The position numbers were made by a program, and so were the translations under genes. From positions 15,826,352 through 15,890,351 of the forward strand of contig NC_037600.1 in assembly GCF_003073045.1 (NCBI RefSeq): a stretch of 64,000 bases of DNA, in the 5' to 3' direction. Origin of the DNA: Pomacea canaliculata (taxonomy: Eukaryota; Mollusca; Gastropoda; Architaenioglossa; Ampullariidae). The notes beneath the pieces are model-generated. The model did no database searches. It worked only from the letters and a program-made list of their open reading frames with translations, and had not been told where the DNA came from. Positions 3,376 through 49,577 of this stretch are shown in pieces (within the stretch, counting starts at the first letter, position 1; each line of letters starts with the position of its first letter).

Positions 3376-6300
3376 ATGTTGAAGACTGTCATCCCTCGTC
3401 TTGTCAACGTCACTGCTGCTTGTCACCTGCCATGTCTACATCCGACATCACTGTCACTGTCTACTCTGCAGCCAGCGACAAGAAGAGAAATGCCAGAAAA
3501 TACCACAGACATCAAGACACCTTCCTTTCAATACTTCTGGCAGCCAGGTTCTGGTTACTATGGTGAAAGTCTCGGAAGAGTAAACAAATCTGCGACTGAC
3601 CTTTGTGACGAGTTTGTCTTATCTCATATAGGTATGTAATTATTAAATAGAGACTTTTATTCAATATAAATGTGAAGACATATATATATATAAATTTGTG
3701 TAACATGTTTTCTCCCAAATGAGATACGAATGACAGATGACCTGGAGTTAGCTTGGTCTGCACGTTGGGAAAACGTCCTTAAACAGGTTTTCAGGTCCTT
3801 ATTTTCAGGGTGGTTAGACCTGTGTGAACATTAGCTTCTCTTGCGATAAACTCACGGTAACACAAATAAAAAAAGAAGTTTTTGCTGAAGAATAAAAAGT
3901 TTTATCAATACAGAGCGGGAGCGCTTGGTGAAGGCAGGGTGAACCACTGGCAGTGCTTTCTTCTATTCATTCAGTTCCCTTTACCTGGAGAGAGAGAGAG
4001 GGACGAAGTCCAAACCCGATGGACTGAGAAAATACACAATGACTAATATCTCGAGATTTTTGCACATAATGTAGTTTAGGGTCGTTCTCTTGGCTTGATA
4101 ATGTCTCGCTATTAGCATTGGAGGACGACTTCAGTCTTTTAAAGTTGTTTTTTTGCAAATATTATCTTAACAGTATAGCTACAAATAAAATATAAAAAAT
4201 CAATTTAAAATTTACGCTCGTCACGCTCTGCCTGCAAATCACCATTCAAAATTATAACCGAATTTTCTAGAAATCATTGTGACCATCTAGAGGCTGTCGG
4301 TTCAGATCCTCTCTCAGGACACTGTTTCTGTATATCACAAACGCTTGCAGGGCTTGGCATCGAGGGTATCCTCCAGGTTTTCTGGTTTCCTTCCCTCAAT
4401 TTCTGCCATACTGCGAAATCACTTCAAGGTGGAAGAACTTTCCTACTAAATATAACATCTTTGATAATTAAGGAATAGTTTTGCAACATTTTGATTTTAC
4501 TGTTTTCTAGATTTATTGCCGGTGCCTTCACCAAAAGGAGTGTTCACCATTGGTGACTATGGGACCTGCGATGGGTCAGTGTCTTTGCATCTTGTAAACA
4601 AGATCATCGGCAAGTACCAGAAATAGTAAAATTTAACTTTAGTCGCTAGTCGATGAAGTTATCGTTATCACAATGTAACAAATATGAAAGCGAAAATTGG
4701 ATGCTTGTGAAGTATGACTGATAACTAGCAAATGATAAGTAAGCATTTTGAATCGACTTATTCATTCGTATAATTCACGGTTGATTATTGTTTCAGAACA
4801 TTTAAGAAAGAAACATGGACCCGACCTGAAGATTCAAGTAGTTTACCAAGACCAACCACATAACGACTACAACAGTCTTTTCAAAACAGTTTACGGTAAT
4901 CTTTTTGTATATATCTCTCACATAATGTTAATACAATATCATGAATTCTCAGTAAGGACAGAATAACCTATTTTTGAACTATTTTCTGTCATTTAGACAA
5001 AGCATCATACATGTCCAAGTTCACCAACGTGTTCCCTTTGGTTTGTGGCACTAATTTCTACAAGCAGTGTGTTCCTGATGACACGTGTGACATTATTGTT
5101 TCTACTTTCGCCACACACTACCTTAGCGAAGACAGGTGAGCTAAACAAACTGATGCTCATTACAAAACAAAATAAAAGCAGTTCATTTCAAGGTCTATTC
5201 ATGTTAGTTCGAGTAAAAATAATTGCCATTCCCCCGATTACCTAGCATTTATTTAGCTGTAAAATTCCTTTATTTCATAACTATTTACTATTTATAAATG
5301 TACACGTGAAGAACTTTTTTTTTCATTCATCATATTAAAAAATGCGAACCATTTCTAAATAATAATATAAATACTATAACTGTGGTTCAGTCATGTGAGA
5401 TGCTCCAATACAATGTTCCCCTGGCGGTCGACATCAGAAGAAGAGCTGCGAGCTCATGACGAGGCTGCAGCACGTGACTGGCAGACGTTCCTCCTCCACA
5501 GAGCAGCAGAACTCAGACAGGGTGAGTGTGAGGATATCTCACAGGTGTCTCCTTTAGTGATGAGATATAGAGAGGGGTGGTGATAAAAATATGATATCCA
5601 ATTGAAATTATAAATGATAATGATACCAATGTGATTAGGACCTCAGGCTAATTAGTTCTCAGCTGTGATGACGACGCTGTCAGATGGGGCATGCCACCCA
5701 TAACTCTGGGTTAATGTCATGATGATGATAATGACGATTATAAAAGTTGTGATGATGATGCTGTAATGGTTTCAACAATCACTCCTTGACATGAAAAGTT
5801 ACAGTTAGGGTCGACATAATAATTAATGTATGTTGTGTAGTGGTTGTGTCCATGTCAAAGCTTTATGAAATGAAGATACCACAATAATAATGAAATCAGT
5901 AACTAAAAAAATAGAACATCATTAAGATGCTAAAACAGATAATTAAAATAGCTAAAACCTTTTTTAATTGAAAAGTCCTTTTCGTGTTCTGCAGGTGGTC
6001 TTCTCTTTGTGTTAATGCCGGCTAAAAGCACAGCCAATGTCTCTTGTACACGAAAGGAAAATCTGCGAAGGACATTTGGACTAATTTTTGATTTGCTGTG
6101 GAACGAATTTCTACGCAAAGGGCTTAATAACAAGAGTAAGTAAAACATAAACCACTAAAACATTTCTTCTATTGAGCTTTAATTTAATTTAATTTAAGGT
6201 TTGACAATGATAAACATCCTAAGAAGTATATATATATATATTACAAACCACATTTTTTGACGAGGAATCAAACGATGCTGACAGTTGGAAACACTCTTTA

Positions 6301-7213
6301 GAGTGCCAGCTATTTCTGAGATTGAGTGAAAACATAACTATATATATATATCGTTACAGGAGGAGTTCCAGTCATGCACTATTGCGATGGCACTTCGGAC
6401 TTTACACGAAATAAAAGCTCCTTTTGAGAATGCCATTCTCCCAGTCCCACAAGCTGGTCTGAATTTGTTGAAGGAACCTGAAGAGTTGTTCACCGCTTGT
6501 TATGCCAAAACAATGTGGCGACAAAACCTGAAGACACGTGAGTATACAATATTTGTACATTATCTACCTTTCTTACTTTACACTTGTAGTGGAGTAATCT
6601 GTGAGAGACTGGCATACTATATGTCAGACTATAATTTATGAGAAAGGAGGGCTCTACTACCACAGACTGCTAGACGGTGTTGAAAAAATAGTTCGTGTGA
6701 TTAGAGCAAACAAAGTGTTCAAATATCATATAAAGAGACGCATCTCTGGCGAGAACAATCATCATTTCAATGTTACAAGATTTTTCTTTAGGTTTGCCAC
6801 ATGCTGTATTATTAATATTTTAAGAACGATTTTAATATTTAATATTTTTAGCCATGTCCGTTTATAAAACTTTATATTTCAAAACATAACGAAAACTTAT
6901 ACCATTATTTATTTATATTTTAATAATGATAAAAGTTCAGTTGTAGATTAATTAATGTTTGTTAGAGTAACATTTTTTTATAGATGGCGTTGACGACAAA
7001 AATCTGTTTGCTCATCTCCTGGCAAAGGGGTTTAGTGTTGTGCTAAATGGAACCTTGCGGAACACCTTCAGGAACACACGCAGTGCTGAGGAACAGTCGA
7101 CAATATTAAAAGACTACTACGAATGTTTCACTCAAAAACTGGCATTGGCGAACCCAGAGGCTTTCCAGAGTGAACTTTTTGTCAGCAGACTTGTTGCTCA
7201 GAAGTTAAAATAG
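3376..7213 (+). CDS. SABATH-like methyltransferase, copy 1 (most diverged; frame break F/G)
   Basis: Eight exons: A 3376-3631, B 4511-4609, C 4797-4895, D 4997-5135, E 5391-5521, F 5995-6135, G 6360-6537, H 6984-7213. Family motifs are present: FWQPGSGYYGE (N-terminal substrate/SAM segment), FTIGDYGTCDG (SAM motif I), NDYNSLFKTVYG, ...CGTNFYKQCVP, RDWQTFLLHRAAEL and a C-terminal helical domain ending LVAQKLK. It belongs to PF03492, which transfers methyl from SAM to carboxyl or ring-nitrogen groups; the substrate here is unknown. Exon B ends in a GC donor (CG|GCAAGT) where all paralogues have GT. Exon F is highly diverged, and its only good donor (AAGA|GTAAGT) leaves phase 1 while exon G needs phase 0, so no canonical GT-AG join is in frame. 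A base error or real inactivation are both possible. Poly(A) signal AATAAA at 7273. Confidence 0.75.
4270..4440 (+). mobile_element. tRNA-derived SINE remnant in intron A-B of copy 1
   Basis: Contains a B-box-like GGTTCAGATCC followed by CTCTCAGGACACTG and a GGTTTTCTGGTTTCC motif, the layout of a tRNA-headed SINE body. It is absent from the same intron of the other six copies. No target-site duplication was recognised. Confidence 0.4.
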
Positions 7214-7466
7214 TTTCTTTGCTGTACTCATGTCTAGCAGACCAACCGATGTCTGCTATATACTGCTTTTGTAATAAATCAAATGTGTAATACCCTGTCA
7301 GTGTCTTTTGTGGAATTCTTGCATTGTTCTTTCTTGTTTGTGTAGTGATCTTTTTGTTGATGTTTTGCATTTTTTATTTTAGCTTTGCTTTATTTATCTT
7401 TCTGTACATGGATAACGCGGTATTGACATTTTATTGTCACTCAAGAAACAAACGAATTCAAACTTC

Positions 7467-7560
<94 letters not shown>
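7467..7560. repeat. (TTG)n microsatellite
   Basis: About 31 uninterrupted TTG units. It produces long poly-Cys and poly-Asn open frames that are not genes. Similar tracts sit at 34972-35074 and 42462-42524. Confidence 0.95.
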
Positions 7561-7821
7561 GTACTGTCATCAGGTGCAGCCTGGCCACAGTGTTTTGAAA
7601 AAAAAAGAAATAAAGGTATATTTCTTTGCTGTCAAAAACCAACCTTCGTGATCTTTTATTCCTGAGTGAGTCAGGAGTGCATGCCGCCACACCCTCTACA
7701 CAATTTTTCAGGCCAAGGACCTTTTAACACTCTCACTGTCGACATTTCTTCAGGCCTATTAAGCACCACACACATTCACCTTTACAGGTCACGTGTTTTC
7801 TTAACGGTCGTGCCTACCTAG

Positions 7822-7970
7822 AAGTTGCGGATGAGTCCTGACTGTAGCGACTAGACCCTGGGTAGACTGACCTTGTGGTGTAAATGTACCTCATAAATAC
7901 GAGGCCATGGAGGGTATATCTAATGGTGTATTTGCACTGAACCACTCAGGTATTTTTAACACGATCTGTC
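7822..7970 (+). repeat. Array-specific upstream block, copy 2
   Basis: Same block as at 1072-1228: TGCGGATGAGTCCTGACTG...CTCATAAATACGAGGC... It lies about 0.6 kb before exon 1 of copy 2. Confidence 0.6.
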
Positions 7971-8289
7971 AACAGAAAGTTCATCTCTTTCTTCTTTTCT
8001 TTTAATATTTTTTTCCTCTATTTACTTTCCTTTGTTTCTGCCATAAGCCTTTTTCATTCGCCATTTGGATGTAAAGTGAACGAAAAACAGATAAAAGCTG
8101 GGAGATGGTGAGCGATTTTCTTGCGAATGTGGGTGCGAGTGTGAAGAGTTCGCCCATGTCAATACACCCCGTGTCGACTGAAAAGTTACCGCGACCTTTC
8201 TCAACCATCCGTGACACGTTGTAAGGACATATAGCATATTCGAACCCCAACTGTTCAATGCAGAAGAGAGACGAAGACTGCGCTCGGAA

Positions 8290-8450
8290 TCCTCCGGAAA
8301 ATACCGGACAGGCCCGAAGATCATTCCTTCTAAAGTTTTCTCGCACGAGGCAGTTACGGTCTGGTCTTCACACCCAGAGGACTCCACCCTGCGTTCAGAC
8401 TGCGAAAGACAGTGGGTGCAGCAAGTACGATATTCTATACCTGATCTACG
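8290..8450 (+). other. Putative non-coding exon 1 of SABATH copy 2
   Basis: Shared core CACACCCAGAGGACTCCACC, then AAAGACAGTGGGTGC and CCTGATCTACG, ending at a strong donor TACG|GTGAGT. It would join the acceptor TTGCAG|ACAGCAGACGAG at 9144. The reading frame differs between copies, so UTR is more likely than coding. The 5' limit is approximate. Confidence 0.6.
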
Positions 8451-9241: not shown

Positions 9242-10440
9242 ATGCTGAAGACTGTGCTCCCCCGTCTTGTGACCACGACTGCCGCTTGTCGCCCGCCATG
9301 TCTACATCTGACGTCACTGTCATCTCTACCGTCAAGGAAGAGGTCGTCAGATGGCGCTGCTACGTCAACGATGAGAAGAGAGATGTCTGGAGATGTAGCA
9401 CGTGCCGAGACACCTTCCTTTCAATACTTCTGGCAGCCTGGTTCTGGCTTCTATGGCGAAAATCTCGGAAGAATGACACAACCTGCGGCTGACATTTGTG
9501 AAGAAATCATTCTATCTCATATTGGTACGTGAGTTTAACAAACATCGAATGATTGATGATTGATGATTGATGACCCACTTTTCTATTTTATGTATGATAT
9601 ATATTTTTATCTTCTAGACGCCGTGCCGGTGCCTTCACCAAAAGGCGTGTTCACCATTGGTGACTATGGAACGTGTGATGGGTCAGTGTCTTCTACGACT
9701 GATACAGAATATCATCGGTAAGTTTAAAGAAGCAGCGCAAAGGGGAACGAGAGCAGTAACTGTCATCATTAATCTATGATATTATATTTATGCAAATTAT
9801 GTCCTTTCCTTCGATGTCTAGAAGACTATTATATTTGTAAAACAAACAGAAAGGAGCTAATAATAAGCATGACTAGTGACAAAGAACTAATAAGTTACTT
9901 GTCTTTGTAGTATTATTAAATAACAGACTAATACGACGATTATTTATTGCTTCAGACCACTTGCGAAACAAACATGGACCCGATCTGAGATTCAGGTGTT
10001 GTACGAAGATCACGCATCCAACGACTTCAACAGTCTCTTCAAAACTATTTACGGTAATTGTATTTAAAGGGGGAGCACTGAGTCTCTCGTCACTTCTCTA
10101 TTATCTAACCTACACAACTATTTCTACAAATCTAACAGATGAATTCCCTTTTATCTAACATACTCAATTTTTCTAGCAATTTAACAGACGATATTTTGTC
10201 TCTCTGGTAGGCCAAACCTCGTACATGACCAAGTTTACCAACGTGTTCCCCCTGGTATGTGGCACTAATTTCTACAAGCAGTGTGTACCTGACAACACCT
10301 GTGACATCATCATGTCCTCATTCGCCGCGATGTATTTGAATAAGGAAAGGTGGGTCGGACAATGAAGCCTAAAAACAAAAAAAACCCAAATCAACTGATG
10401 TTCAAAATATAAAACCATTTTCGATCAAATAATATATTGT

Positions 10441-10494
<54 letters not shown>

Positions 10495-12665
10495 GTGTGT
10501 GTAAGTTAGTTATAATCATTATTTTGTATCGATGTTTACATGGATACCTAGTGCTCGTTATGTAATCGTCACCTTTATTTAACAAACGTTTACTATTTAA
10601 GAAATGTTCACTGAAAGGTGTTTCGCATTATTTCTCTTTGTTCTGATAAAGGTTCTCTCACAAGCAGTAGATTAAGAAACGTTGTTGAAGACTAATGTAT
10701 ACTTGATAATGTAAATGAAATCACTGTGTTTAGTTACGTGAGATGCTCCAATACAATTTTGCCCTGGCGGTCGTCATCAGAAGAGGAGCTGAAAACTATC
10801 CGCGAGGTGGCAGCACGTGACTGGCAGACGTTCCTCCTCCTAAGAGCAGCAGAACTCAAACCAGGTGAGTAGGTGGAAGTTAGAAAGGTATCTGTAATCC
10901 TTCTGAAAGTGAGTGAAGAAAAGAAATACGAAGATGATGGTGATGGATGGTGATGATGATTATTATTATTCACATGTTATGATGACGCTGTTGAGGGAGT
11001 GATTATAATATCACACAATGACAGGAAGAGTAACTTTTAAAATGTGTGTACTAAACTGTGTGGACGTTAATAACAGTAACTGTGTCCAGACCATTGTAAT
11101 GACATTGTGACTGAAGCCAAGACTATAATGTTGATATAGGTGATAAGGATGGCGATTATGAAACATGTATAACATCATCGATTCAATCTAACAAACTCCA
11201 CAATAATTCAAAGCAGCTATGTAAAAATGCATTGTTTTTCTTTTGTTCTCCAGGTGGACTTCTTTTTGATACTCAGACTGCTAAGCTCCTGGGGAGCAAC
11301 CCTCCACAGACTCGCACTTTGACCTACCCTCTCTCTGAAAGCGACACTGGAACAAGACAAGATAGCTCTCAAGATATTTGGACTTCTTTTGATTTGAGTT
11401 GGAAGGAATTATACGCAGAAGGAATAATTACAAAAGTGAATAAAACATACAATAATAAACTTATTCTTGATTTTACACTTTTGCCGTGTAACGGTAACTA
11501 TAAGTTTCGATATTGCATCGAACACAGTTTGATTACCTTGAACCAATCTGTTCGTGGTTTTAGTCAAGTCAACAATGTCTGAAACAGCTTTCATTAAGCG
11601 ATGTTCCAAACCAAATTATTGTATCTAAGGACCATTAAGACAAAAAATTGCAGATTTTCAGTTCTCGATGGAGTTTTCTATTTGTCCAATCAGTTCAGAC
11701 TAGGCCTCTTCTGAAGACACTGTGTCCCCAAAACCTCGATGTAGAAACTAGATTGGTCAAAGGTCATTTATCAAGAGATATTATTAAATACGTGTTAATG
11801 ATTATATTAAATTGAAAGATTATCTTGTTATGGAAGAGGCCTCGCTTAAGCAGTACTGAAAAATATCTCAATCTCTCGATGTCTAGTTGTATAAGAAATC
11901 AGAAATATTAAGAATTGTGAAGGAAGAGATCAAGATTGACATTCACCTTTACAATTTATTTTTTAGGAGGAGTTCCAGTCGTGCACTCTTCCGCTGGTGT
12001 TTCGGACTTTACAAGAAGTAAAGACTCCTTTCGAGAATGCCGCCATGTCTCCAGTCCGACAGGCTGGTCTCAACTTGATAAAGGACCCACAAGAGTTTCT
12101 CACTTATTGTCCTGTCAAAACACTGTGGCGACAAAAGCTACAGACTGGTCAGTGTAAACAAAATTTCATTTTATCTTTTTTTTTATTTTTATTTTTTTAT
12201 TTGTTTTGCCTTGTCTCTGGAAAGATTACTGCGTAAAATTTTCTATTAATTTTGGATTTAAATAAAATAGAGGTAAGCATTTTATTTATAATAAAATTAA
12301 ATTAAAGACCAGCAATACTGTTAAGTAAGGACTGAAACTAAGGTCAAATCATCTTTTGACGAGAACAAACATTTATGTGTTGTATTGTCTGTGAATGTTT
12401 ACTCATTTGTTAAGTGGTGCATGTATTTTTTGCAGATGGCGTTGACGACAGAATGATGTTTGCTCAACTTCTCGCAAAAGCATTTTGTCTTGTGTTAGAT
12501 GGGACTTTGAGGAACACTTTGAGAAACACAAGACCTGCTGAGGAACACTTGCCCATAATCCAACGCCTCCAGCAGAAGTTCATTCAAAGAGTTGCTGCCT
12601 TGAACCCAGAGATTTTCAAAAGTGAAATTGTTGTGAGAATCCTTGCTGCACAGAAGTCAAAATGA
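9242..12665 (+). CDS. SABATH-like methyltransferase, copy 2 (compensated frameshift)
   Basis: Exons: A 9242-9524 (5' UTR part from 9144), B 9618-9717, C 9956-10053, D 10211-10349, E 10734-10864, F 11254-11435, G 11967-12147, H 12436-12665; 447 codons, open throughout. Domain order as in copy 3. Exon B has one extra T near 9691 and exon C lacks one A near 9989. Together they restore the frame but replace 20 residues just after SAM motif I (from LRLIHKVI... to ...PDLK) with unrelated sequence, while motif I (GDYGTCDG) and IQVLYED stay intact. Exon E is also unusual (SNTILPWRSSSEEELK, FLLLRAAEL). Catalytic competence is doubtful. An upstream in-frame ATG exists at 9206; I chose the ATG shared by all copies (MLKTV). 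The intronic CRE/TATA block of the other copies is missing from intron E-F. Poly(A) signal at 12671. Confidence 0.82.
10445..10500. repeat. (TC)n microsatellite in intron D-E, copy 2
   Basis: CT dinucleotides ending in GTGTGTG. The tract is at the same intronic place in copies 2-7 but varies in length and interruption. Confidence 0.9.
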
Positions 12666-13955: not shown

Positions 13956-16900
13956 ATGCTGAAGATTGTGCTCCCCCGTCTTGTGACCACGACTGCCGCT
14001 TGTCGCCCGCCATCTCTACATCTGACGTCACTGTTATCTCTACCGTCAAGGAAGAGGGCGTCAGATGGCGCTGCTACGTCAACGATGCGAAGAGAGATGT
14101 CTGGAGATGTAGCAGGTGCCGAGACACCTTCCTTTCAATACTTCTGGCAGCCTGGTTCTGGCTTCTATGGCGAAAATCTCGGAAGACAGGCACAACCTTC
14201 GGTTGCCATTTGTGAAGAAATTGTTTTATCTTATATCGGTACGTGAGTGATTTTATTTAAATATTTTTAATTTCGGAAGACTGATTTTTTTTTTTAAAGT
14301 GACTATGGGAAATGCCGCCAATTTATATACATTATTTCTTACTATGGCAGCAGCATAGTGCCGTATGTGTTTGTGTGTACTGAGCAGTAATTCAACGAAA
14401 CTGAAAACCTGCTGTTGATTTTTCTATCTACTAGACGCCGTGCCGGTGCCTTCACCAAAAGGCGTGTTCACCATTGGTGACTATGGAACGTGCGATGGGA
14501 CAGTGTCTCTACGACTGATACACAAGGTCATCGGTAAGTAAAGAAGAAGCGCAAAGCAGAATTGTCATCATTAATCAATGGTATTATATTTATGAAATCA
14601 TGTTCTTTTGATTCCAATACTTGTCAAAAAAAAAAACCAGAATAACAATAATAATTAAGCAGGACTGGTGACGAAGAACTGACAAATAAGTACTTGTCTT
14701 TGTAGTATTATTAAATAAGCAGACTAATAAGACGATTATTTATTGCTTCAGACCACTTGCGAAACAAACATGGACCCGATCTGAAGATCCAGGTGTTGTA
14801 CGAAGATCACGCATCCAACGACTACAACAGCCTCTTCAAAACTATTTACGGTAATTGTATTTATAGGGGTGAGCTCTGAGTCTCTCGTAACTTTTCTTTT
14901 ATCTAACACACACAACAATTTCTACAATTTAACGGATGACTTCCCTTTTATCTAACATGCTCAAAAATTTTCTAGCAATTTAACAAACGATATTATTTTG
15001 TCTCTCTGGAAGGTCAAACCTCGTACATGACCAAGTTCACCAACGTGTTCCCCCTGGTATGTGGCACTAATTTCTACAAGCAGTGTGTACCTGATAACAC
15101 CTGTGACATCATCATGTCCTCATTCGCTACGGTGTATTTGAGTAACGAGAGGTAGGTAATACAGAGCAGCACTTCATTAAAAAAAAAACGTAAAAAAGCC
15201 CAAATCAACTGATGTCTGTTGCTGTGATATAGCCCTAGCTGCTGACACGGCATTAAACACAAATAAATAAACAAACTGATGTCTAAAATATATAACCATC
15301 TTTGATCAAATACCATATTTTATTTCCTCACCCTCTCGCTCTCTCTCTTTCTTTCTGTCTCTGTCTCTGTCTCTGTCTCTGTCTCTGTCTCTGTCTCTGT
15401 CTCTGTGGCTCTCTCTCTCTCTCTCTCTCTCTAAGTTAGTTGTAATCATTATTTTGTATCGATGTTTACATGGATACCTAGTGCTCTTTATGTAAAAGTC
15501 ACCTTTATTTAATAAACGTTTAATGTTTTAGAAATGTTCACTTAATGGTGTTTCGCATTATTTCTATTTGTTCCGTGTAAAGATTCTCACACAAGCAGTA
15601 GATTAAGAACCGTCGTTAAAATTAATGTATACTTGATAATGTGAATGAAATCACTGTTTAGTTACGTGAGATGTTCCAATACAATGTTCCCCTGGCGGTC
15701 GACATCACAAGAGGAGTTGCGCGCTCACCGCGAGGCTGCAGCACGTGACTGGCAGACGTTCCTCCTCCACAGAGCAGCAGAACTCAAACCAGGTGAGTAG
15801 GTGTGTAGCGGGCACGATGTTTGAGATTTGGGTGTGAAACTCCAACACAAATTCGTCAAATTCGTTCTTTATTTTGATGTTAAGAATATTTTTCTAGCTA
15901 GTCTCCTCCTTCGGTCTTTTTCTAACGTCGTCCGTTTTCCGTCACATTTTTGTCGTCACCTTTTTGTCGTCACCCTTATTTTGACATCACAATGTATGAC
16001 GTCACACCTCCAGCCCACCACACACCCAAACCAGAACTCAAAATAACTATGTAAATACACATGACATTCCCCAGCCCCCAAATGTCATGGGTGATACAGG
16101 TGGAAGTTAGGTGTCTGTTATCCTTCGGAAGGTTATGTGCAGAGAGGGAGTGAAGAAAAGAAAGAAGGTGATTATCTAGTGAGTCGTGTTAGGTCTCGTA
16201 TTGTCTCGTGTACAATGGTGTCTTGTGTCTGACGTCTTGTGTGCGTCATTTGTCCCACGTCACTTGAAGCAGAAAATGACGTCATATAAAATAGAAAGGA
16301 AGTTGCTCTCAAAATGGCCAACTAAGGGGGAAAATAAAAGTCTTCGTCCGCCATCTTCTTTATAACTCTCAGTGACAGTCCTCTGAACTTGTGCCTCTTC
16401 GATTCATCTATAAATCTCTTCATCCTCATTCTCGTCGTCATCTGCAAGGTCTTCTCGAGCGTTGTGTGTGTGCGTGTGTGTGTGTAATACGTCATACGTA
16501 CGCAAGGTAAGTTTACGTTCGTCATTTACAATGATGCTATTGTGATAAAGATGACAAAATAATGTTAAAACAGGTGACTAGGATAGCGAGTATGAAACTT
16601 GCGTCACACCATCAACATAATAAAATAAACTCAATAATAATTCGAAGAAGCTAAACATTTCACATGTTGTTCTTCAGGTGGACTTCTTTTCGATGTTCAG
16701 GCTGCTAGACTCCTGGGGAGCAACCCTCCACAGACTCGAACTTTGACCTACCCTCTCGCTGAAAACTTCACTGGAGTGGGAGTAGAATGCGTCCAAGATA
16801 TTTGGACTTGTTTTGATTTGAGTTGGAAGGAATTATACATGGAAGGACTAATTACAAAAGTAAATGAAATATAGAATATTAAAATTATTCTTGTTTTTAC

Positions 16901-21638: not shown

Positions 21639-21697
<59 letters not shown>

Positions 21698-34971: not shown

Positions 34972-35076
<105 letters not shown>

Positions 35077-36569
35077 TGTTGACTTTTACAGGCAAATCAT
35101 TTTCCTTATTAGTGTGAAAGAACACGTAATTGTCTGACCCCGCAAGTGTGTCCGAAAGGGAGTGAGCGAGAGTCACTACACGGTGTCGTGACACAAACCC
35201 AACCTTCGTGATCTTTTATTCCTGAGTGAGTCAGGAGTGCATGCCGCCACACCCTCTTACACAATTTTTACAGATCAAAGGACCTTTTAACACTCTCACT
35301 GGTCGACCTTTCTTTCGGTCTATTAAGCACCAACACGACATTCACCTTCGCAGGTCTCGTGTTCTCTTAACCCCCTTACTCCCCCGTGCACTATTAGCGA
35401 TTTTAGTAAATGGATCAGCCACACCACCCAGTTCATTCCTTGTAAGGATGTACAACAAAAATATCATTTCTGAAGAAATGTTATTTACCCTCAGACAGAA
35501 GACACCCTCCCCAGAGCAACCTATCTAACGACATGAGTCTAGCTCCTCCAATGCCACCATTAAACCAGCCTATAAAACGTCCGCAGAACGTGATACCCGT
35601 GAAATCCCTTTGACCTCTGTCCAATTTCACTTTAACTTTTTTAATTAGTTAATTAAATTGATCGATTGTTGCAGTGTTCCTAAGTTTTACTGACCCCAGG
35701 GAACTGGGTCTGTGGGTGACAGGGTATAACTCCTGCTACCCACGTCAACATAACCCTGCAGGGGAACAAGATGACAATAATCATATAGTCTCTCTAGTTC
35801 CAATACACAGCTCACGAGTCCCCTTCCCTGCTCTTCCCCGAACAACGGACTTAACAACCTGTCATTTAACGTACAACAAAAAAGATTTCTATAACAGATA
35901 AACATGTAAATACATACAATAAAATGACTCCTCTTAAGCAGGTGTTCTCAAAGTGTTGTCCGCGGACCACTTGTTGGCCACACTCATGTCAGATGATCCA
36001 CGTCTGATAGTCATATGTCAGCAAAGTGATGTTTAAATCGTCAGATACACTAATTAGTCCAGTCTTGTTTTTATACGAGTTTTAATTTTATCAATGCCCA
36101 ACTGCTTTTTCGCATAAGAAATAGAAAGTAGCTCTCAAGCAACTTCTACCCTATCGAAACTCTGAAAAAATATAAAACTGGCGAAGTGAATCATTTTATT
36201 TAGTGCTTCAGTTGCAAGTGGTGAATCATTTCATTTAGTCTTTTTTTAGATATCGTGTGATATATTATTGTTTTTTCGTTGTAAACGTAAGTAAACTAAA
36301 AATCTTGTCTTCATACTACTGGCCTCTTCACCCGACCTTCACGCTTCACTCCCCCAACACACACCCGCGCACCTGTCGCTAGTCGACCCACTCTCGCTCC
36401 CCTCCGGTCACGGCGCTGTCACCCGGCAAGTACTGACCCCCCATCGCCAGCCTCTACCCTCCCTGTGTGCGCGTGTGTGCGTGCCATCTTCCATCCTACT
36501 TATATGCGATGTCCCATACTACCATTGATATAACGTAATAAAATATTTTTTAATTGTTATGGTAGGCCT

Positions 36570-38117: not shown

Positions 38118-40090
38118 ATGCTGAAGACTGTGCTCCCCCGTCTTGTGACCACGACTGCCGCTTGTCGCCCGCCATCTCTACATCTGACGTCACTGTCATC
38201 TCTACCGTCAGGGAAGAGGGCCTCAGATGGCGCTGCTACGTCAACGATGCGAAGAGAGATGTCTGGAGATGTAGCAGGTGCCGAGACACCTTCCTTTCAA
38301 TACTTCTGGCAGCCTGGTTCTGGCTTCTACGGCGAAAATCTCGGAAGACAGACACAACCTGCCGTTGACATTTGTGAAGAAATTGTTTTATCTTATATCG
38401 GTACGTGAGTGATTTTATCTAAATATTTTTAATATCGGTAGACGGATTTTTAAAAAGTGACTATGGGACATGCCGCCAATTTATACACATTATTTCTTAC
38501 AATGTCTGCAGCATAGTGCCGTGTGTGTGTGTGTGTGTGTATAGAGCACCAGCGTTGTTCACGAAAGATTATAAAGCACATCTTTGAACTAAAATACCCA
38601 AGCAGCACAAAAAGATTGGGGACACATGTGACCTATGTCATGAACTTGGTGTGTCGCCTGTAGAATTTATTCATGGAACTCAAGCCGAAGGTGAATGATT
38701 TTCATGTAGGCATGAAAGTTTCGGATCACTTTGAACTCGTTTCATTTTTTTTTTTACTTTCAGTATAGACCATCGGAGTGCAGATAGTATTTAAATTTTT
38801 TTCTTCTGCATTGTTATTTGTATTGTAACAACTTAAAACTCAGTTGGAAGCATTCAACGGGGATCTCAGTACATTCGTATGGTTGGTAAAGACAACTGAG
38901 TGGCTATCAGACGTACCTCTAGCAATTCACTTTGACCACCGGAAAGTGTGTGCTGCACATTTTCTCTTTTTAGGCTTTTAAAATACAACTTAAAACAAGG
39001 AAATATTTTTTTCAAAACACACACACACGTCCCATGTTGTCTATATATCATGTTTTATGTCTCTCTGGTTATCAAGAAACCATTTTTGTGGAATTTATTA
39101 CGTACTGAGCAGTAATTTAACGGAACATAATAGCCTGCTGTTGATTTTTCTATCTTCTAGACGCCGTGCCGGTGCCTTCACCAAAAGGTGTGTTCACCAT
39201 TGGTGACTATGGAACGTGCGATGGGTCAGTGTCTCTACGACTGATACACAAGGTCATCGGTAAGTACAAAGTAGTGCAAAGTGGAATTGTCATCATTAAT
39301 CAATGGTATTATATTTATGAAATCATGTTTTTTTTTATTCCTATATTTGTAAAAAAAAAAAACAAAAAAAAAAAAAAAAAAAAACAAAAAAAAAAAAACA
39401 GAATGAGAATAATAATGAAGCAGGACTGGTGAAGAAGAACTGACAAATAAGTACTTGTCTTTGTAGTATTACTAAATAAACAGTAAAATACGGAGATTTT
39501 TATTGCTTCAGACCACCTGCGAAACAAACATGGACCCGATCTGAAGATTCAGGTGTTGTACGAAGATCACGCATCCAACGACTACAACAGTCTCTTCAAA
39601 ACTATTTACGGTAATTGTATTCATAGGGAGCGCACTAAGTCCCTCGTAGCTTTTCTTTTATCTAACATACTTAAATATTTCTACAAATTTAACAGATGAA
39701 TTCCCTTTTATCTAAATTCTCAATTTTTCTACCAATTTAACAGACGATATTATTTTGTTTCTCCGGTAGGTCAAACCTCGTACATGACCAAGTTCACCAA
39801 CGTGTTCCCCCTGGTATGTGGCACTAATTTCTACAAGCAGTGTGTACCTGACAACACCTGTGACATCATCATGTCCTCATTCGCCACGATTTATTTGAGT
39901 AACGAGAGGTGGGTCGGACACAGAAGCACTTCATTTTAAAAAGAAACGTAAAAAAGCCCAAATCATGTAATGTCTATTGCCGTGATATAGTCCTAGTTGC
40001 TGACACGGCATTAAACACAAATAAACAAACAAACTGATGTCTAAAATATATAACCATGTTTGATCAAATACGATATTTTATTTCCTCCCT

Positions 40091-40128
<38 letters not shown>

Positions 40129-42461
40129 GTAAGTTAGTTATTACCATTATTTTGTATCGATGTTTACATGGATATCTAGTGTTCTTTATGTAATCCTCAC
40201 CTTTACTCAATAAACGTTTACTATTTTAGAAATGTTCACTGAGAGGTGTTTCTCATTATTTCTATTTGTTCCGTGTAAAGGTTCTAAAGCAAGCGGTAGA
40301 CTAAGAACCGTTGTTAAAATTAATGTATACTCGATAATGTGAATGAAATCACTAGGTTTAGTTACGTGAGATGCTCCAATACAATGTTCCCCTGGCGGTC
40401 GACATCAGAAGCGGAGCTGCGCGCTCACCGCGAGGCTGCAGCACGTGACTGGCAGACGTTCCTCCTCCACAGAGCAGCAGAACTCAAACCAGGTGAGTAG
40501 GTGGATTTTATACAGGTGTCTGAAATCATTTGGAAGATTATGTGCAGAGAGGGAGTGAAGAAAAGAAAGAAGCTGATTGTCTAGTGAGTCGTTTTATGTC
40601 TTGTTTTGTCTCGTGTACAATGGTGTCTTGTGTCTGACGTCTTGTGTCTGACGTCTTATGTGCGTCCTTTGTCCCACGTCATTTGAAGCAGAAAATGACG
40701 TCATATATAAGAGAAAAGCAGTTGCTCTCAAAATGGCCAACTAAGCGGGAAAACAACCGTGTTCGTCTGCCATCTTCTTTATAATTCTCTCAGTGACAGG
40801 CCTCTCAACTTGTGCCTCTTCGATTTATCCATAAATCTCTTCATCGTCATCCTCGTCGTTATCTGCGGGGGCTCGTCGAGCGTTCTGTTTTTGTGTGTGT
40901 GTAATACGTTGTGCCTACGGAAGGTAAGTGTACGCTCGTCAATTACATCGATGCTATTGTGAAAGGATGAGAATGATGAGGAGTAGGAGAATGAATCGAT
41001 GATGAGGATTGGTGATGATGAGGGGTGGATGGATGATGGTGGATGATGAGGACGGATGTGCCACTGTATGGTGAATATGACTCAAAATGACACATTGACA
41101 GGAAGGGTAACGTTCAGTATGGGTGTGATAAACTGTGTAGACGCTAATAACTGTGTCCATTCGATTGTGTCCATAACATTGTGACTAACGACAGGACAAT
41201 AATGTTAAAACAGGTGAGTAGGATCGCGATTATGAAACATGCGTTACATCATCAACATAATCAAATAAACTCAACAATAATTCGAAGAAGCTATATATTT
41301 TATATTGTGTTCTCCAGGTGGACTTCTTTTCGATGTTCAGGCTGCTAGACTCCTGGGGAGCAACCGTCCACAGACTCGAAATTTGGCCTACCCTCTCGCT
41401 GAAGAGGGAGAAGAATGCGTCCAAGATATTTGGACTTGTTTTGATTTGAGTTGGAAGGAATTATACGTGGAAGGATTAATTACAAAAGTGAATAAAATAT
41501 AGAATATTACAATTATTCTTATTTTTACATTTGTGCCATGTAACAGTAACTGAAAGTTTAGATACTGCATCGAACACAATTAGATTAACTTGAACCAATC
41601 TATTTCTGTTATTAGTCTGGTCATCAGTCGTATCTGAAACTGGCTTCGCTAAGCGATGTTCCAAACCAAATCCATATATGCTTACAAGAAACATTTAGAC
41701 AAGAAAATTGCAGGTTTTCAGTTCTCTAAGGAGTTTTTTATTTGTCCAGATCAGTTCAGACTAAGAGCCCTCCTGAAGTAACTGTGTCCCCAAACACTCG
41801 ATGTCAGAGTAGAACCTAAATAGGTCCAAAGTCATTTATCAGTCATTAACCTTTATACATATGTAACCTATAATGATTGTATTGAATTGAAAGATTATCA
41901 TGGGAAAAGCTAATGAAAGAATGAAGAATAATGAAAACAAGAAACCTTTGACAACGGCAGACACGATGTTGAGTAAAGTACGACTTTAATCGAAGTAATT
42001 ACGAATCTTACGAATTCTAATAATCTCTTATTTAGGATAAAAATAAACTGAATGATGTCTTGTTATGGAAGAGCCTTTGTTTACACAATACTGAGAAGTA
42101 TTATCAATTTCTTGATACATGGTTGTATAAAGGATCAGAAACATTAAGAATTGTGAAGGAAGAGATCAAGATTGACATTGACTCTTTCAATTTATTTTTT
42201 TTTTTTTTTTTAGGAGGAGTTCCAGTCGTGCACTCTTCCGCTGACATACCGGACTTTACAGGAAGTAAAAGCTCCTTTCGAGAATGCCGCCATGTCTCCA
42301 GTCCGACAGGCTGGGCTTAACTTGTTAGAGGACCCACAAGAGTTTCTCACTCATTGCTCTGTCAAGAAACTATGGCGACAAAAGCTACAGACTGGTCAGA
42401 GTAAAAAAAATTTCCTGCTGTCTCATTTTTTACCTGACAGACATACTTCTCTGGAAAGATT

Positions 42462-42527
<66 letters not shown>

Positions 42528-42925
42528 GTTTTGTTTTGTTTTGTTTTGTTTTTTTTTGTTTTTTTTTTTTTTTTTTGAGATATTAATAAGGACTGAAACT
42601 AAGGTCAGATCATATTTTGAATAGAACAAACATTTATGTGTTGTATTGTCTGTGAATGTTTACTTATTTGTTAAGTGGTGCATATATTTCTGCAGATGGC
42701 GTTGACGACAGAGTGATGTTTGCTCAACTTCTCGCAGAGGCATTTTATCTTGTGCTGGATGCGACTTTGAGGAACACTTTGAGAAACACACGACCTGATG
42801 AGGAACACTTGCCCATAATCCAACGCCTCCAGCAGACGTTCATTCAAAGAGTTGCTGCCTTGAACCCAGAGACTTTCAAAAGTGAATATGTTGTGGTAAT
42901 TCTCGCTGCACAGAAGTCAAAATGA
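38118..42925 (+). CDS. SABATH-like methyltransferase, copy 6 (intact)
   Basis: Exons: A 38118-38400 (UTR part from 38024), B 39161-39259, C 39512-39610, D 39770-39908, E 40362-40492, F 41318-41487, G 42214-42394, H 42696-42925; 443 residues. Exon F is 12 nt shorter (YPLAEEGEE instead of YPLAENFTG.GEE), an in-frame loss in a variable loop. WTCFDLSW, CSVKKLWRQ and SEYVVVIL tie it to copy 3. Intron G-H carries a long (TTG)n and (TTTTG)n expansion. The donor after exon G is G|GTCAGA rather than GTCAGT. An ATG at 38082 in frame upstream is shared with some copies only. The usual poly(A) hexamer after the stop is altered to AGTAAA near 43021. Confidence 0.87.
39347..39400. repeat. A-rich tract in intron B-C, copy 6
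   Basis: Runs of A separated by single C; not seen at this length in the paralogous introns. Confidence 0.9.
40084..40128. repeat. (TC)n microsatellite in intron D-E, copy 6
   Basis: Short CT tract, homologous in position to those in copies 2-5 and 7. Confidence 0.88.
40640..40923 (+). promoter_or_regulatory. Conserved CRE + TATA block in intron E-F, copy 6
   Basis: TGACGTCA at 40696-40703 followed by TATATAAGAG; donor-like CGGAAG|GTAAGT at 40923. Confidence 0.4.
42462..42576. repeat. (TTG)n then (TTTTG)n tract in intron G-H, copy 6
   Basis: About 21 TTG units followed by TTTTG pentamers and a T-run. Copies 4 and 7 have only the TTTTG part at the homologous place. Confidence 0.93.
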
Positions 42926-44552: not shown

Positions 44553-47500
44553 ATGCTGAAGACTGTGCTCCCCCGTCTTGTGACCACGACTGCCGCTTGT
44601 CGCCCGCCATCTCTACATCTGACGTCACTGTCATCTCTACCGTCAGGGAAGAGGTCGTCAGATGGCGCTGCTACGTCAACGATACGAAGAGAGATGTCTG
44701 GAGATGTGGCAGGTGCCGAGACACCTTCCTTTCAATACTTCTGGCAGCCTGGTTCTGGCTTCTATGGCGAAAATCTCGGAAGACTGACACAACCTTCGGT
44801 TGACATTTGTGAAGAAATTGTTTTATCTCATATCGGTGCGTGAGTGATGCGATTTTATTTCAGTATTTTTAATATCGGTAGACTGACATTTTTAAAAAGT
44901 GACTATAGGACATGCCACCAATTTATACACGTTATTTCTTACTACGTCAGCAGCATAGTGCCGTGTGTGTGTTTGTGCGTAGGGCACCAGCATAGTTTAA
45001 GAAAGATTATAGAAAGCACATCTTTGAATTAAAATACCCAAGCAGCACAGGAAGATTGGGGACACATGTGACCTGTGTCATGAACTTGGTGTGTCGCATG
45101 TAGAATTTATTCATGGGACACTGGCCGAAGGTGAATGATTTTTATGTAGTCATGAAAGTTTCGGATCACTTGGAACTCGTTTCATTTTTATTTTTGCCTT
45201 TCAGTACAGACCATCAGAGTGCAGATAGTATTAAAGTTTTTCTTCTGCATTGTTATTTGTATTGTAACAATTTAAAACGCAACTGGAAGCATTCAACGGG
45301 GATCTCAGTACACTCGTATGTCTCGGTAAAGGCAACTGAGTGGCTAACAGACGGATCTCTAGCAATTCACCTTGACCACCGGAAAGTGTGTGCTGCACAT
45401 TTTCGCTTTTTAAGCTTTTCAAATACAACTCTAAAACAAGGAAATAATTTATTTAAAAACAACACTCACGTCACATGTTGTCTATAAATCATGCTTCATG
45501 TCTCTGTGGTTATCAAGAAACCATTTTTTGTAGAATTTACTAGGTATTGAGAAGTAATTCAATAGCCTGCTGTTGATTTTTCTATCTTCTAGACGCAGTG
45601 CCGATGCCTTCACCAAAAGGTGTGTTCACCATTGGTGACTATGGAACGTGCGATGGGTCAGTGTCTCTACGACTGATACACAAGGTCATCGGTAAGTAAA
45701 GAAAGCGCAAAGGGGAATGAGAGCAGTAATTGTCATCATTAATCAATGGTATTATATTTATGAGAACTTGGGTTTTTTTTATTGCTATATTTGTAAAACA
45801 AACAGAATGAGACTAATAATTAAGCAGGACTAGTGACAAAGAACTGACAAATAAGTACTTGTCTTTGTAGTATTACTAAATTAACAGACTAATACGACGA
45901 TTATTTATTGCTTCAGACCACTTGCGAAACAAACATGGACCCGATCTGAAGATTCAGGTGTTGTACGAAGATCACGCCTCCAACGACTACAACAGTCTCT
46001 TCAAGACTATTTACGGTAATTGTATTTATAGGGGGAGCACTGAGTCTCTCGTCACTTTTCTATTATCTAACATACACAACTATTTCTACAATTTAACAGA
46101 CGACTTCCCTTTTATCTAACATTCTCAAATTTTTCTACCAATTTAACAGACGATATTTTGTCTCTCTGGTAGGTCAAACCTCGTACATGACCAAGTTCAC
46201 CAACGTGTTCCCCCTGGTATGTGGCACTAATTTCTACAAGCAGTGTGTACCTGACAACACCTGTGACATCATCATGTCCTCATTCGCCACGATGTATTTG
46301 AGTAACGAGAGGTGGGTCATACAGAGCAGCACTTCATTAAAAAAAACCGTGAAAAAGTCCAGATCAACCGATGTCTATTGCCGTGATATAACCCTAGTTG
46401 CTGGCACGGAATTAAACACAAATAAACAAACAAACTGATGTCTAAAATATATAACCATGTTTGATCAAATACGATATTTTATTTCCTCTCTCTCTCTCTT
46501 TCTTTCTTCCATTCTCTCTCTTTCTCTTTGTAAGTTAGTGATTACCATTATTTTGTATCGATGTTTACATGGATAGCTAGTGCTCTTTATGTAAATGTGA
46601 ATGAAATCACTGTGTTTAGTCACGTGAGATGCTCCAATACAATGTTCCCCTGGCGTTCGACGTCGGAAGAGGAGCTGCGCGCTCACCGCGAGGCGGCAGC
46701 ACGTGACTGGCGGACGTTCCTCCTCCACAGAGAAGCAGAACTCAAACCAGGTGAGTAGGTGGAAGTTAGGTGTCTGTAATCCTTCGGAATTTTATGTGCA
46801 GAGGGAGTGAAGAAAAGAAAGAAGCTAATTATCTAGTGAGTCGTTTTAGGTCTCTGTTGTCTCGTGTTCAATGGTGTCTTGTGTCTGACGTCTTGTGTGC
46901 GTCATTTGTCCCACGTCACTTGAAGCAGAAAATGACGTCATATATAAGAGAAAAGCAGTTGCTCTCAAAATGGCCAACTAAGTGGGGAAAACAACCGTCT
47001 TCGTCCGCCATCTTCTTTATAACTCTCTCAGTTGTGCCTCTTCAATTCATCCATAAATCTCTTCATCGTGATCCTCGTCGTCATCTGCGGGGGCTCGTCG
47101 AGCGTTCTGTTTGTGTTTGTGTGTAATATGTTATGCCTACGGAAGGTAAGTGTACGCTCGTCAATTACAATGATGCTATTGGGTTATGATGAGAATGATG
47201 ATGAGGAGGAGGATGGATGGATGATGAGGATTGGTGATGATGAGGGGTGGATGGATGATGGTGGATGATGATGACATATGCGCCACTGTATGATGCAATG
47301 GTGAATATGACTCAAAATGTCCTGATGACACAATGATAGGAAGGGTAACGTTCAGTATGGGTGTGATAAACTGTGTAGACGTTAATAGCCGTAACTGTGT
47401 CCATAACATTGTGACTAACGAGAGGACAATAATGTTAGAATAGGTGAGTAGGATGGCGATTATGAAACATGCGTTCCATCATCAACATAATAAAATAAAC

Positions 47501-49577
47501 TCAACAATAATTCGAAGAAGCTATACATTTTATATTTTGTTCTCCAGGTGGACTTCTTTTCGATACTCACTCTGCTAAACTCCAGGGGAGCAACCCTCCA
47601 CAGACTCGCACTTTGACCTACCCTCTCGCTGAAAACTTCACTGGAGAGGGAGAAGAAAGCGTCCAAGATATTTGGACTTCGTTTGATTTAAGCTGGCAGG
47701 AATTATACGTAGAAGGATTAATTACAAAAGTAAATGAAACATAGAATATTAAAATTATTCTTGTTTTTACATTTGTGCCATGTAACAGTAACTGAAAGTT
47801 TAGATACTGCATCGAACACAATTAGATTAACTTGAACCAATCTATTTCTTTTATTAGTCTGGTCATCAGTCGTATCTGAAACTGGCTTCGCTAAGCGATG
47901 TTCAGAACCAAATGAGTGTATATTTCCAAGAAACATTAAGACAACAAAATTGCAGGTTTTAAGTTCTCGATGGAGTTTATATGTCCAGATCAGTTCAGAC
48001 TAAGAGCCCTCCTGAAGTAACTGTGTCCCCAAACACTCGATGTTAGAGTAGAACCTAAATAGGTCCAAAGTCATTTATAAGGAGACACCTTTATACATAT
48101 GTACCCTATAATGATTGTATTGTATTGAAAGATTATCACGGGAAAAGCAAGGTAAAAGTGAGAATAATGAAAACAAGAAACCTTTGACAACGGCAGACAC
48201 GATGTTGAATAAAGTACGACTTCAATCGAAGTAATCATGAATCTTACGAATTCTAATAATCTCTTAGAAATATTTAGGATAAAAAGAAACTGAGTGATTA
48301 TGGAAAAGGCTTTGTTTAAACAATACTGAGAAGTATTATCAATTGCTCGATGTATGGTTGTATAAAGAATCAGATATATTTTAGAATTGTGAAGGAAGAG
48401 ATCAAGATTGACATTGACTCTAACAGCTTATTTTTTAGGAGGAGTTCCAGTCGTGCACTCTTCGGGTGACATTCCGGACTTTACAGGAAGTAAAAGCTCC
48501 TTTCGAGAATGCCGCCATGTCTCCAGTCCGACAGGCTGGTCTCAACTTGTTAAAGGACCCACAAGAGTTTCTCACTCATTGTCCTGTAAAGACACTATGG
48601 CGACAAAAGCTACAGACTGGTCAGTGTAAACTAAATTTCATGTTATCTCATTTTTACCTGACAAACATACTTCTCAGATTTTTTGTTTTTTTTTTTTTTT
48701 TTTGCCCTTCGCACCTCCAGGTGCATCGACGACAGTTTACTGTTGTCGATGTTTTAGTAGCAAGGATTTGTTTTACGAGGTGGGGGCTGGCCCCACGCCC
48801 AACCCTCCTCCTTTTTCAGCCGGGCTTGGGACCGTCCTTGGCGGAGAGCAGCCAGCCCTGTAAACAGGTGCCACGTGCAGAGAAAGAACAGCGTGCCCGA
48901 GACGAGAAATGAACTCAGGGCAGCCAACCTTCACTGTATTGGTGACAGGCGCTAACAGCGCTAACCGTTGCGCCACCGGGCCGCCACTTCTCAGATTACT
49001 ACGTGAAAATTGTAAATTAAAATAGTAAAATACAAAATATACTATAAGAAATTAAACTGTATACAGTTTTTCACGAGCTCGTAAAACAGAAATAGATGTA
49101 TGTTTATTAAAGACCAACCTGAATGGTTTGCGTTTTGTTTTGTTTTGTTTTGTTTTGTTTTGTTTTGTTTTGTTTTGTTTTTGTTTTGGTTTGTTTTTTT
49201 GTTTTGGGGTTTTTTTTCTTTTATGAGATATTAAAAAGGACTGAACCTAAGGTCAAATCGTCTTTTGACGAGAACAAACTTTTATGTGTTGGATGTATTG
49301 TCTGTGAATGTTTACTCATTTGTTAAGTGGTGCATATATTTTTGCAGATGGCGTTGACGACAGAATGATGTTTGCTCAACTTCTCGCAAAGGCATTTGGT
49401 GTTGTATTAGATGGGACTTTGAGGAACACTTTGAGAAACACACGACCTGCTGAGGAACACTTGTCCATAATCCAATGCTTCCAGCAGAGGTTCATTCAAA
49501 GAGTTGCTGCACTGAACCCAGAGACTTTCAGAAGTGAACCAATTGTGAGGATCCTTGCTGCGCAGAAGTCAAAATGA
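44553..49577 (+). CDS. SABATH-like methyltransferase, copy 7 (intact, SINE in intron G-H)
   Basis: Exons: A 44553-44835 (UTR part from 44454), B 45593-45691, C 45917-46015, D 46173-46311, E 46620-46750, F 47548-47729, G 48439-48619, H 49348-49577; 447 residues, all phases preserved. Differences: DAVPMPSPKG in exon B, WRTFLLHREAELKPG in exon E, FDTHSAKLQGSN in exon F, and a changed C-terminal helix AFGVVLDG...LSIIQCFQQRF in exon H. SHVRCSN and SEPIVRIL link it to copy 4. Intron G-H contains a complete SINE (48681-48985). The exon A donor is GTGCGT rather than GTACGT. An in-frame upstream ATG lies at 44517. Poly(A) signal at 49705. Confidence 0.87.
46484..46528. repeat. (TC)n microsatellite in intron D-E, copy 7
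   Basis: Short interrupted CT tract. This intron is also about 80 bp shorter than in copy 4 just before exon E. Confidence 0.85.
46880..47145 (+). promoter_or_regulatory. Conserved CRE + TATA block in intron E-F, copy 7
   Basis: TGACGTCA at 46933-46940 followed by TATATAAGAG; donor-like CGGAAG|GTAAGT at 47145. Confidence 0.4.
48669..48997 (-). mobile_element. Complete tRNA-derived SINE with 12-bp target-site duplication
   Basis: The element proper is 48681-48985 on the minus strand. Its 5' head reads GGCGGCCCGGTGGCGCAACG with an A-box-like TGGCGCAACGGTTAG and a B-box-like GAGTTCATTTCTCG. The body follows and ends in an A-rich tail (T-run on the + strand, 48681-48702). Perfect direct repeats ACTTCTCAGATT flank it at 48669-48680 and 48986-48997. 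Copy 4 shows the unoccupied site at about 23950. It would be transcribed by RNA polymerase III; it does not encode protein. Confidence 0.85.
49132..49192. repeat. (TTTTG)n microsatellite
   Basis: About ten TTTTG pentamers plus degenerate units in intron G-H of copy 7. Confidence 0.92.

Follow-up and report, generated by a model that had tools for sequence, protein, structure and literature searches.

A single-locus cluster of PF03492 methyltransferase genes in the snail Pomacea canaliculata and its putatively altered acceptor site

A 64,000-nucleotide stretch of the genome of the gastropod Pomacea canaliculata, hereafter the window (contig NC_037600.1; C11:15826352-15890351 in the searched assembly of 440,159,624 bases and 24 contigs), contains seven tandem genes that an initial annotation likened to the SABATH carboxyl methyltransferases of plants, raising the question of which acceptors such enzymes would methylate in an animal and why they are present in so many copies. 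In plants, small-molecule methyl esters serve as hormones, volatiles, and defense compounds. The comparisons presented here place the snail genes in the family PF03492 and lead us to favor, at slightly better than even confidence, the explanation that an expansion at a single locus has held constant the half of each enzyme that binds S-adenosylmethionine (SAM) and varied the acceptor half, such that individual copies would differ in acceptor specificity.

Family membership and extent of the cluster

The seven genes, designated c1 to c7, lie head to tail on the forward strand between a first ATG at window position 3376 and a last stop at 49577 and share one eight-exon structure; the extent and architecture first annotated are thus borne out by splice models, which return the same first ATG and last stop. 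Two of the seven spliced copies were scanned in full against Pfam, and both score far above the PF03492 (Methyltransf_7) cut-off of 29.8 bits (c7, 88.1 bits; c3, 87.2 bits); exons 1 to 5 of c1 score 75.8 bits. With 88.1 bits set against a cut-off of 29.8, chance similarity is excluded at the level of sequence, by which the window genes are shown to belong to the PF03492 SAM-dependent methyltransferases, the fold family of the plant SABATH enzymes and of the mycobacterial fatty-acid O-methyltransferase (FAMT). The motifs quoted for the SABATH assignment are present, with small variants in c1 (GSGYYGE), c2 (NDFNSLFK, FLLLRAAEL), and c7 (FLLHREAEL). Against NCBIfam, none of three proteins scanned came close to a cut-off.

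Although membership in the SABATH fold family stands, the nearest solved relative is bacterial and not a plant enzyme. Specifically, among PDB sequences c7 best matches mycobacterial FAMT (5f2k; 66 bits, E 2.6e-17), with the plant geniposidate, salicylate, indole-3-acetic acid (IAA), and loganate methyltransferases at E 1e-5 to 6e-5 (best approximately 28 bits) and the plant salicylate methyltransferase (SAMT) 1m6e at E 2.3e-5 and 27 bits. A seven-row profile scores 5f2k at 470 bits and 1m6e at 134 bits; the high FAMT score is expected because the profile, made of three snail and four bacterial rows, includes two mycobacterial ones. The same profile matches the xanthine and urate N-methyltransferases 2efj, 2eg5, 6lyh, 6lyi, and 8uzd at E 2e-24 to 6e-30.

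Of 100 candidate stretches from a scan of bacterial genomes, 62 are relatives, almost all of them mycobacterial, a picture that is biased because the scan patterns were seeded with an alignment holding a FAMT stretch. The best bacterial match in this FAMT-seeded scan is an Acidimicrobiales protein, L001, at 27% (97/354 columns). An AlphaFold model built from 16 rows (mean pLDDT 68.4), which describes this bacterial relative and not the snail protein, has FAMT or SABATH chains as all of its 28 best PDB matches (TM 0.66-0.82); the five best are FAMT chains (5f2o, 5f2n, and 5f2k, TM 0.78-0.82), 1m6e follows at 0.74-0.75, and xanthine and urate N-methyltransferases are also matched. Within the phylum of L001, PF03492 is patchy (7 of 198 genomes, that of L001 included), and it is absent from all 14 control genomes; one scan of viral contigs for virus-borne relatives yielded 82 pattern matches and no relatives. 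In a tree of exons 2 to 5, 30 snail loci form a single clade on a long branch relative to four bacterial rows, and each snail gene has seven introns as against the one uninterrupted frame of L001. A recent bacterial origin was considered and is not claimed.

The duplication described in the initial annotation is indeed tandem, and its extent is larger than the seven copies there counted. A direct PF03492 search of the whole genome returned five exon matches, all on C11, and a 46-residue exon-4 query found 37 places, all within C11 15272120-15876785 (605 kb); these genome-wide counts refer to exon 4 and are lower bounds, end-to-end intact genes being shown only for c3 to c7. Stops interrupt 3 of the 37 matches and are lacking in 34, and in 31 the E value is 1e-10 or below. 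The matches fall into two blocks, at 15.272-15.311 and 15.627-15.877 Mb, approximately 317 kb apart, and the 30 loci whose DNA was read comprise 19 on the plus and 11 on the minus strand. Four pairs of loci 100-104 kb apart (L083/L085, L078/L075, L080/c1, and L077/c2) align over 2530-3159 bases with 93.5-96.9% identity, and L088 and L089 form an inverted pair of approximately 95-97% identity. As these distant pairs and the inverted pair indicate, growth was segmental as well as tandem, and the window array is one end of a single-locus expansion grown by tandem, inverted, and approximately 100-kb segmental duplication. Block duplication of the window units themselves was considered and rejected: the unit tree pairs c3 with c6 (support 91) and c4 with c7 (93), whereas a tree from introns alone pairs c3 with c5 (58) and c4 with c7 (65), and given this conflict over the partner of c3 no duplication order is claimed.

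The gene models were obtained by locating the conserved peptide anchors of the exons in each unit and joining them at splice sites. All 49 introns end in AG and 48 begin with GT, the remaining donor (c1 intron 2) being GC, and the lengths of exons 2 to 8 recur as 99, 99, 139, 131, 182, 181, and 230 bases, with exceptions in c1, c2, and c6. Starts are placed at ATG 3376 and its equivalents; the true start may be another, as a later conserved Met is present. Five copies are intact, as the initial annotation held, and read through without a stop as proteins of 443 or 447 amino acids: c3 (13956-18323; exons 13956-14238, 14435-14533, 14752-14850, 15013-15151, 15662-15792, 16678-16859, 17581-17761, and 18094-18323), c4 (19750-24514; exons 19750-20020, 20774-20872, 21062-21160, 21303-21441, 21930-22060, 22821-23002, 23722-23902, and 24285-24514), c5 (29334-34592; exons 29334-29616, 30107-30205, 30431-30529, 30637-30775, 31226-31356, 33006-33187, 33848-34028, and 34363-34592), c6 (38118-42925; exons 38118-38400, 39161-39259, 39512-39610, 39770-39908, 40362-40492, 41318-41487, 42214-42394, and 42696-42925), whose exon 6 is shorter by four codons, and c7 (44553-49577; exons 44553-44835, 45593-45691, 45917-46015, 46173-46311, 46620-46750, 47548-47729, 48439-48619, and 49348-49577). 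Their description as near-identical is a little strong: pairwise protein identity is 89.0-93.9%, and the introns are 86.9-92.1% identical.

The two upstream copies are less well preserved. The oldest unit of the array, c1 (3376-7213, plus strand; exons 3376-3631, 4511-4609 with the GC donor, 4797-4895, 4997-5135, 5391-5521, 5995-6135, 6360-6537, and, by homology, 6984-7213), is probably a pseudogene: in the alignment its exon 6 lacks 7 bases at one place and 36 at another and has a single additional base at each of two places, a net loss of 41 bases that breaks the frame. In c2 (9242-12665, plus strand; exons 9242-9524, 9618-9717, 9956-10053, 10211-10349, 10734-10864, 11254-11435, 11967-12147, and 12436-12665), an additional base in exon 2 and a missing base in exon 3 replace approximately 20 residues before the frame is regained, and the copy is possibly non-functional; exons 2 and 3 of its twin, L077, are free of frameshifts. 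Upstream of the conserved domain, exon 1 of each unit (in c1, 3376-3519) opens with a basic leader of approximately 45-57 residues, of which 24-28 among 47-48 aligned residues are identical between c1 and c3 to c7; it could be an organelle-targeting leader, perhaps a mitochondrial one.

A constant donor half and a changing acceptor half

Previous work on plant enzymes supplies the residues against which the snail copies can be read. In CbSAMT, K10, Q25, and W151 fix the carboxylate of the substrate (PMC13376665, section 8), and in AtIAMT the SAM/SAH-binding and catalytic residues are K21, S33, D68, D108, L109, and F140 (PMC13376665); a passage of PMC10420828 names Q38, H162, and W163 as site residues of CrLAMT. 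When CbSAMT numbering is read off the alignment of the seven-row profile to 1m6e, each of the seven window copies has D, D, and F at the equivalents of D57, D98, and F130, which are also invariant in the seven-row alignment. The position of S22 (S33 in AtIAMT) cannot be surely placed in the snail copies.

The acceptor side presents a different picture. In the same alignment W151 falls opposite the Tyr of the snail motif ATMYLS, and all seven window copies have Tyr where the plant enzymes have the carboxylate clamp Trp (W151 in CbSAMT, W161 in AtIAMT, W163 in CrLAMT). Across the 30 of 37 cluster matches in which the position was read, the residue is Trp in 9, Tyr in 16, Phe in 2, His in 2, and Ile in 1; among the seven remaining matches it was read only in a minus-strand fragment of the window described below, which has Trp. 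By comparison, the corresponding alignment column holds Trp in 54 of the 62 bacterial relatives and Arg, which is real, in the other eight, and Trp in three plant structures aligned in the profile output. With the tree of exons 2 to 5 rooted on the four bacterial rows, the loci bearing Trp are the deep branches, a group of 20 loci devoid of it comes next (support 91), and L093 has lost it separately; support is weak at two deep nodes (49 and 60) and for the majority of the nodes within the recent array (20-64).

Acceptor-site positions other than the clamp also differ between members. The residue before it (M150 in CbSAMT, H162 in CrLAMT, Q154 in MmFAMT) has changed eight times, tied for first with three others among 158 sites whose median is one change; in the mutant structure 5f2o, it is this MmFAMT Q154 that has been replaced by Ala. 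The window copies read FWQPGS. Of the 17 members in which this stretch is covered, 3 have Lys before PGS (FWKPGS), namely L083, L085, and L087, all bearing Trp; the other 14, among them every covered locus with Tyr or Phe and one with Trp (L095), have Gln. The Lys of FWKPGS is possibly the equivalent of K10, in which case two acceptor-site residues, this Lys and the clamp Trp, may have changed together. When L097 is used as a guide (Y-SDNSLAR, ungapped against Y-AMNSFIQ), the Q25 position can be read in the 19 members whose exon 1 is readable, of which 18 have Arg and one, L095, has Glu; this Arg is the third residue after the S22-like one and would suit an anionic acceptor. Neither of the acceptor motifs of mycobacterial FAMT, S-x-L-Q and QW/HW, is kept in the window copies.

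Consistent with a division between the two halves is the finding that constraint is uneven between exons, as established from codon comparisons. We fitted a codon-model likelihood of our own to c3-c7, with branch lengths shared between exons. The ratio of nonsynonymous to synonymous rates (omega) is lowest in exons 2 to 5 (0.25) and intermediate in the conserved part of exon 1 (0.52); exon 6 reaches 0.97, exon 7 0.83, and exon 8 0.76, and exons 6 to 8 pool at 0.85. Separate values per exon improve on a single omega (twice the log-likelihood difference 29.2, four degrees of freedom, p 7e-6), as do separate values for exon 6 and exons 2 to 5 (20.7, p 5e-6), and Nei-Gojobori values among the same copies point in the same direction. 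Between c1 and c3-c7, omega is 0.19-0.22 for exons 1 to 5, 0.33-0.50 for exon 7, and 0.40-0.59 for exon 8. Exons 6 to 8 form, as we assume from the SAMT fold, much of the acceptor-binding cap. Site model M2a is preferred over M1a across all sites (p 0.007, kappa and the relative branch lengths being held fixed); since significance is confined to that comparison, positive selection is suggested and no more. The diversification envisaged in the initial annotation therefore holds in the loose sense that exons 6 to 8 are near neutral as against constrained exons 2 to 5, selection for it being suggested only.

Proposed mechanism and alternative explanations

Under the explanation favored here, SAM would be bound by the constant N-terminal half, and the variable C-terminal half would provide most of a pocket that presents a small acceptor to it, methyl transfer proceeding by proximity and desolvation, as a passage of PMC13223930 proposes for MmFAMT and CbSAMT. 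The acceptor would most likely be a small, mainly hydrophobic acid held in an altered clamp composed of Arg at the Gln25 position (in one alignment reading) and of Tyr, Phe, His, or Ile in place of Trp151. Copies would differ in acceptor specificity as in gene clusters for detoxification or chemical signals; candidate acceptors include lipid acids, signals, and acids with a dietary or defensive role.

Several observations weigh against this explanation. Firstly, the clamp is not the most variable site, its five changes ranking it 17th of 158, and with its Trp gone a carboxylate is less likely to be bound as in the known enzymes. Secondly, the placement of Gln25 is ambiguous: counted from the Tyr with no gap, the residues of c1 to c7 are V, M, Q, L, L, Q, and L, MAFFT selects another residue, and on the gap-free and the L097-guided reading alike Gln25 is apparently not conserved as it is in the family. 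K10, likewise, is either absent from the window copies or without a clear position in them, and the equivalent of L99 (L109 in AtIAMT) is His in c2 to c7 and Gln in c1; the four bacterial rows lack Leu at this position as well. Thirdly, M2a is not significant over M1a for exons 6 to 8 alone (p 0.057) or for the rest alone (p 0.28), gene conversion between copies could mimic the site-wise signal, the near-neutral exons 6 to 8 could reflect relaxed constraint, and c1 and perhaps c2 are decaying. The acceptor site of these PF03492 methyltransferases thus appears altered and varying, and because all seven copies have Tyr at the clamp and Gln is not kept as such, the annotated term carboxyl methyltransferase survives as to family and serves, as to chemistry, as a hypothesis.

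The plainest alternative is that these are ordinary SABATH-type carboxyl methyltransferases, forming methyl esters of small carboxylic acids as plant SAMT, JMT, and IAMT do and multiplied for dosage. Membership in PF03492, the three retained SAM-site residues, and the strong constraint on exons 2 to 5 all agree with this account, a Tyr could still hydrogen-bond a carboxylate, and the pairing of Trp with a possible K10 equivalent in L083, L085, and L087 suggests that some members of the cluster may have kept a classical clamp. We nevertheless regard it as improbable: the clamp Trp so prevalent in bacterial relatives and plant structures is found in 9 of the 30 cluster members and in none of the window copies, Gln25 is not kept as such, and differences between the copies at positions of the acceptor site make selection for dosage, as first proposed, a poorer fit.

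A second possibility is that only a few copies matter and the others drift, exons 6 to 8 recording constraint lost after duplication in a relaxed, partly decaying tandem family. The omega near 1 in those exons and the non-significance of M2a for them alone would be expected on this view, as would the broken c1, the two frameshifts of c2, and the stops in 3 of 37 exon-4 matches. This too seems unlikely, given that five window copies are intact and 34 of the 37 matches lack stops, that these same recent copies show strong constraint in exons 2 to 5, and that change is concentrated at the residue preceding the clamp although the exon around it is conserved.

A third holds that the acceptor is not a carboxylate and that the enzymes perform N-methylation, phenol O-methylation, or some other reaction. 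The SABATH enzymes include the xanthine N-methyltransferases, an illustration that acceptor chemistry can switch. The replacement of the clamp Trp in most members read favors such a switch, as do the xanthine and urate N-methyltransferases of the same fold family matched by the profile and by the L001 model; no residue pattern was found that points to a particular other acceptor, and an Arg near the Gln25 position would suit an anion, so that we rate this possibility, like the two before it, as doubtful. Least probable by far is an inflation of the copies by assembled alternative haplotypes, for although a very heterozygous genome could approach the 93.5-96.9% identity of the twin loci, the introns of c3 to c7 differ by 8-13% in units ordered along one contig, L077 lacks the frameshifts of c2, and the inverted pair L088/L089 exists.

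Returning to the expansion with differing acceptor specificities, a bolder form of it, which we advance tentatively and hold to be clearly less probable, would have at this single locus a repertoire of some 30 PF03492 enzymes with a re-made clamp (Gln25 to Arg, Trp151 to Tyr, Phe, His, or Ile, and repeated changes at the neighboring contact residue) and with selected C-terminal diversification, constituting a chemical-signaling, defense, or detoxification family as yet undescribed in animals. Automatic database annotations of these snail genes presumably exist, and very likely so. As far as titles, the opening parts of abstracts, and a few passages of the literature show, an animal PF03492 cluster with an altered clamp is probably new: no paper on animal PF03492 appears by title among the matches listed from the open-access literature, none of nine open-access papers whose text was found to name PF03492 concerns an animal as judged by title, and the P. 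canaliculata genome paper (PMC6129957) has no instance of "methyltransfer" in its main text. Already known are the fold family and the duplication of plant SABATH genes with changing substrates (PMC13376665). The cluster, with 37 places matching the fold family, a constrained donor half, and a varying acceptor half, brings the question of what animal PF03492 enzymes methylate within reach of experiments on a few recombinant proteins, and its clamp change would amount to a natural experiment on how the PF03492 fold alters acceptor recognition.

Neighboring features and closest known systems

Downstream of c7, a diverged eighth family member is present as a fragment in open frames on the minus strand (50204-50767), in which only exons 3 and 4 are recognized. 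Its own-family profile matches are 29.9 and 26.3 bits and its PF03492 matches, at 15.4 and 15.3 bits, lie below the cut-off; it corresponds to the whole-genome exon-4 match C11:15876660-15876785 (window 50309-50434) and retains the clamp Trp (AIHWIS). Farther on, two partly overlapping open frames on opposite strands (53054-55816), an endonuclease frame on the minus strand (PF03372/PF14529) and a reverse-transcriptase frame on the plus strand (PF00078), look like copies of a long interspersed nuclear element (LINE) in inverted arrangement. Minus-strand exons of an argininosuccinate synthase gene lie at 60827-63670, three of the four open frames tested matching PF00764 or PF20979 over the cut-off; one exon is closest among solved chains to 2nz2, which we take to be human. 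Together with the intron-rich genes, this gene and the LINE-type frames agree with the animal-type genome first annotated.

Intron 5 of c5 is long, at 1649 bases as compared with 389-885 in c2, c3, c4, c6, and c7, and contains a 177-codon open frame on the minus strand (31802-32335) that resembles a LINE fragment by eye and for which a Pfam scan gave no family over the cut-off. Long TTG microsatellites of approximately 31-37 repeats occur 3' of three units (7467-7560, 34972-35081, and 42462-42550).

With respect to known systems, the closest is mycobacterial FAMT (5f2k), 35% identical to c7 over 165 aligned residues, whose Q154-W155 pair stands opposite the MY/HW pair of the snail proteins. 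FAMT retains S-x-L-Q and QW, whereas the snail clamp Trp is replaced, and the snail copies additionally possess a leader of approximately 45 residues, an additional loop of approximately 16 residues in exon 6, and introns. L001 and the snail copies share the SPV-QAGL block and lack the Gln of S-x-L-Q; L001 differs in its one uninterrupted frame and in keeping HW. The plant SABATH enzymes (CbSAMT 1m6e, CrLAMT 6c8r, and AtIAMT 3b5i) have in common with the snail copies PF03492, the D57, D98, and F130 positions, and the FY and PGG motifs, but their similarity is lower than that of FAMT, and the snail copies lack an equivalent of W151 and, with less certainty, equivalents of K10 and Q25. Finally, the plant xanthine and urate N-methyltransferases share the fold family of the snail copies, a family within which acceptor chemistry switches.

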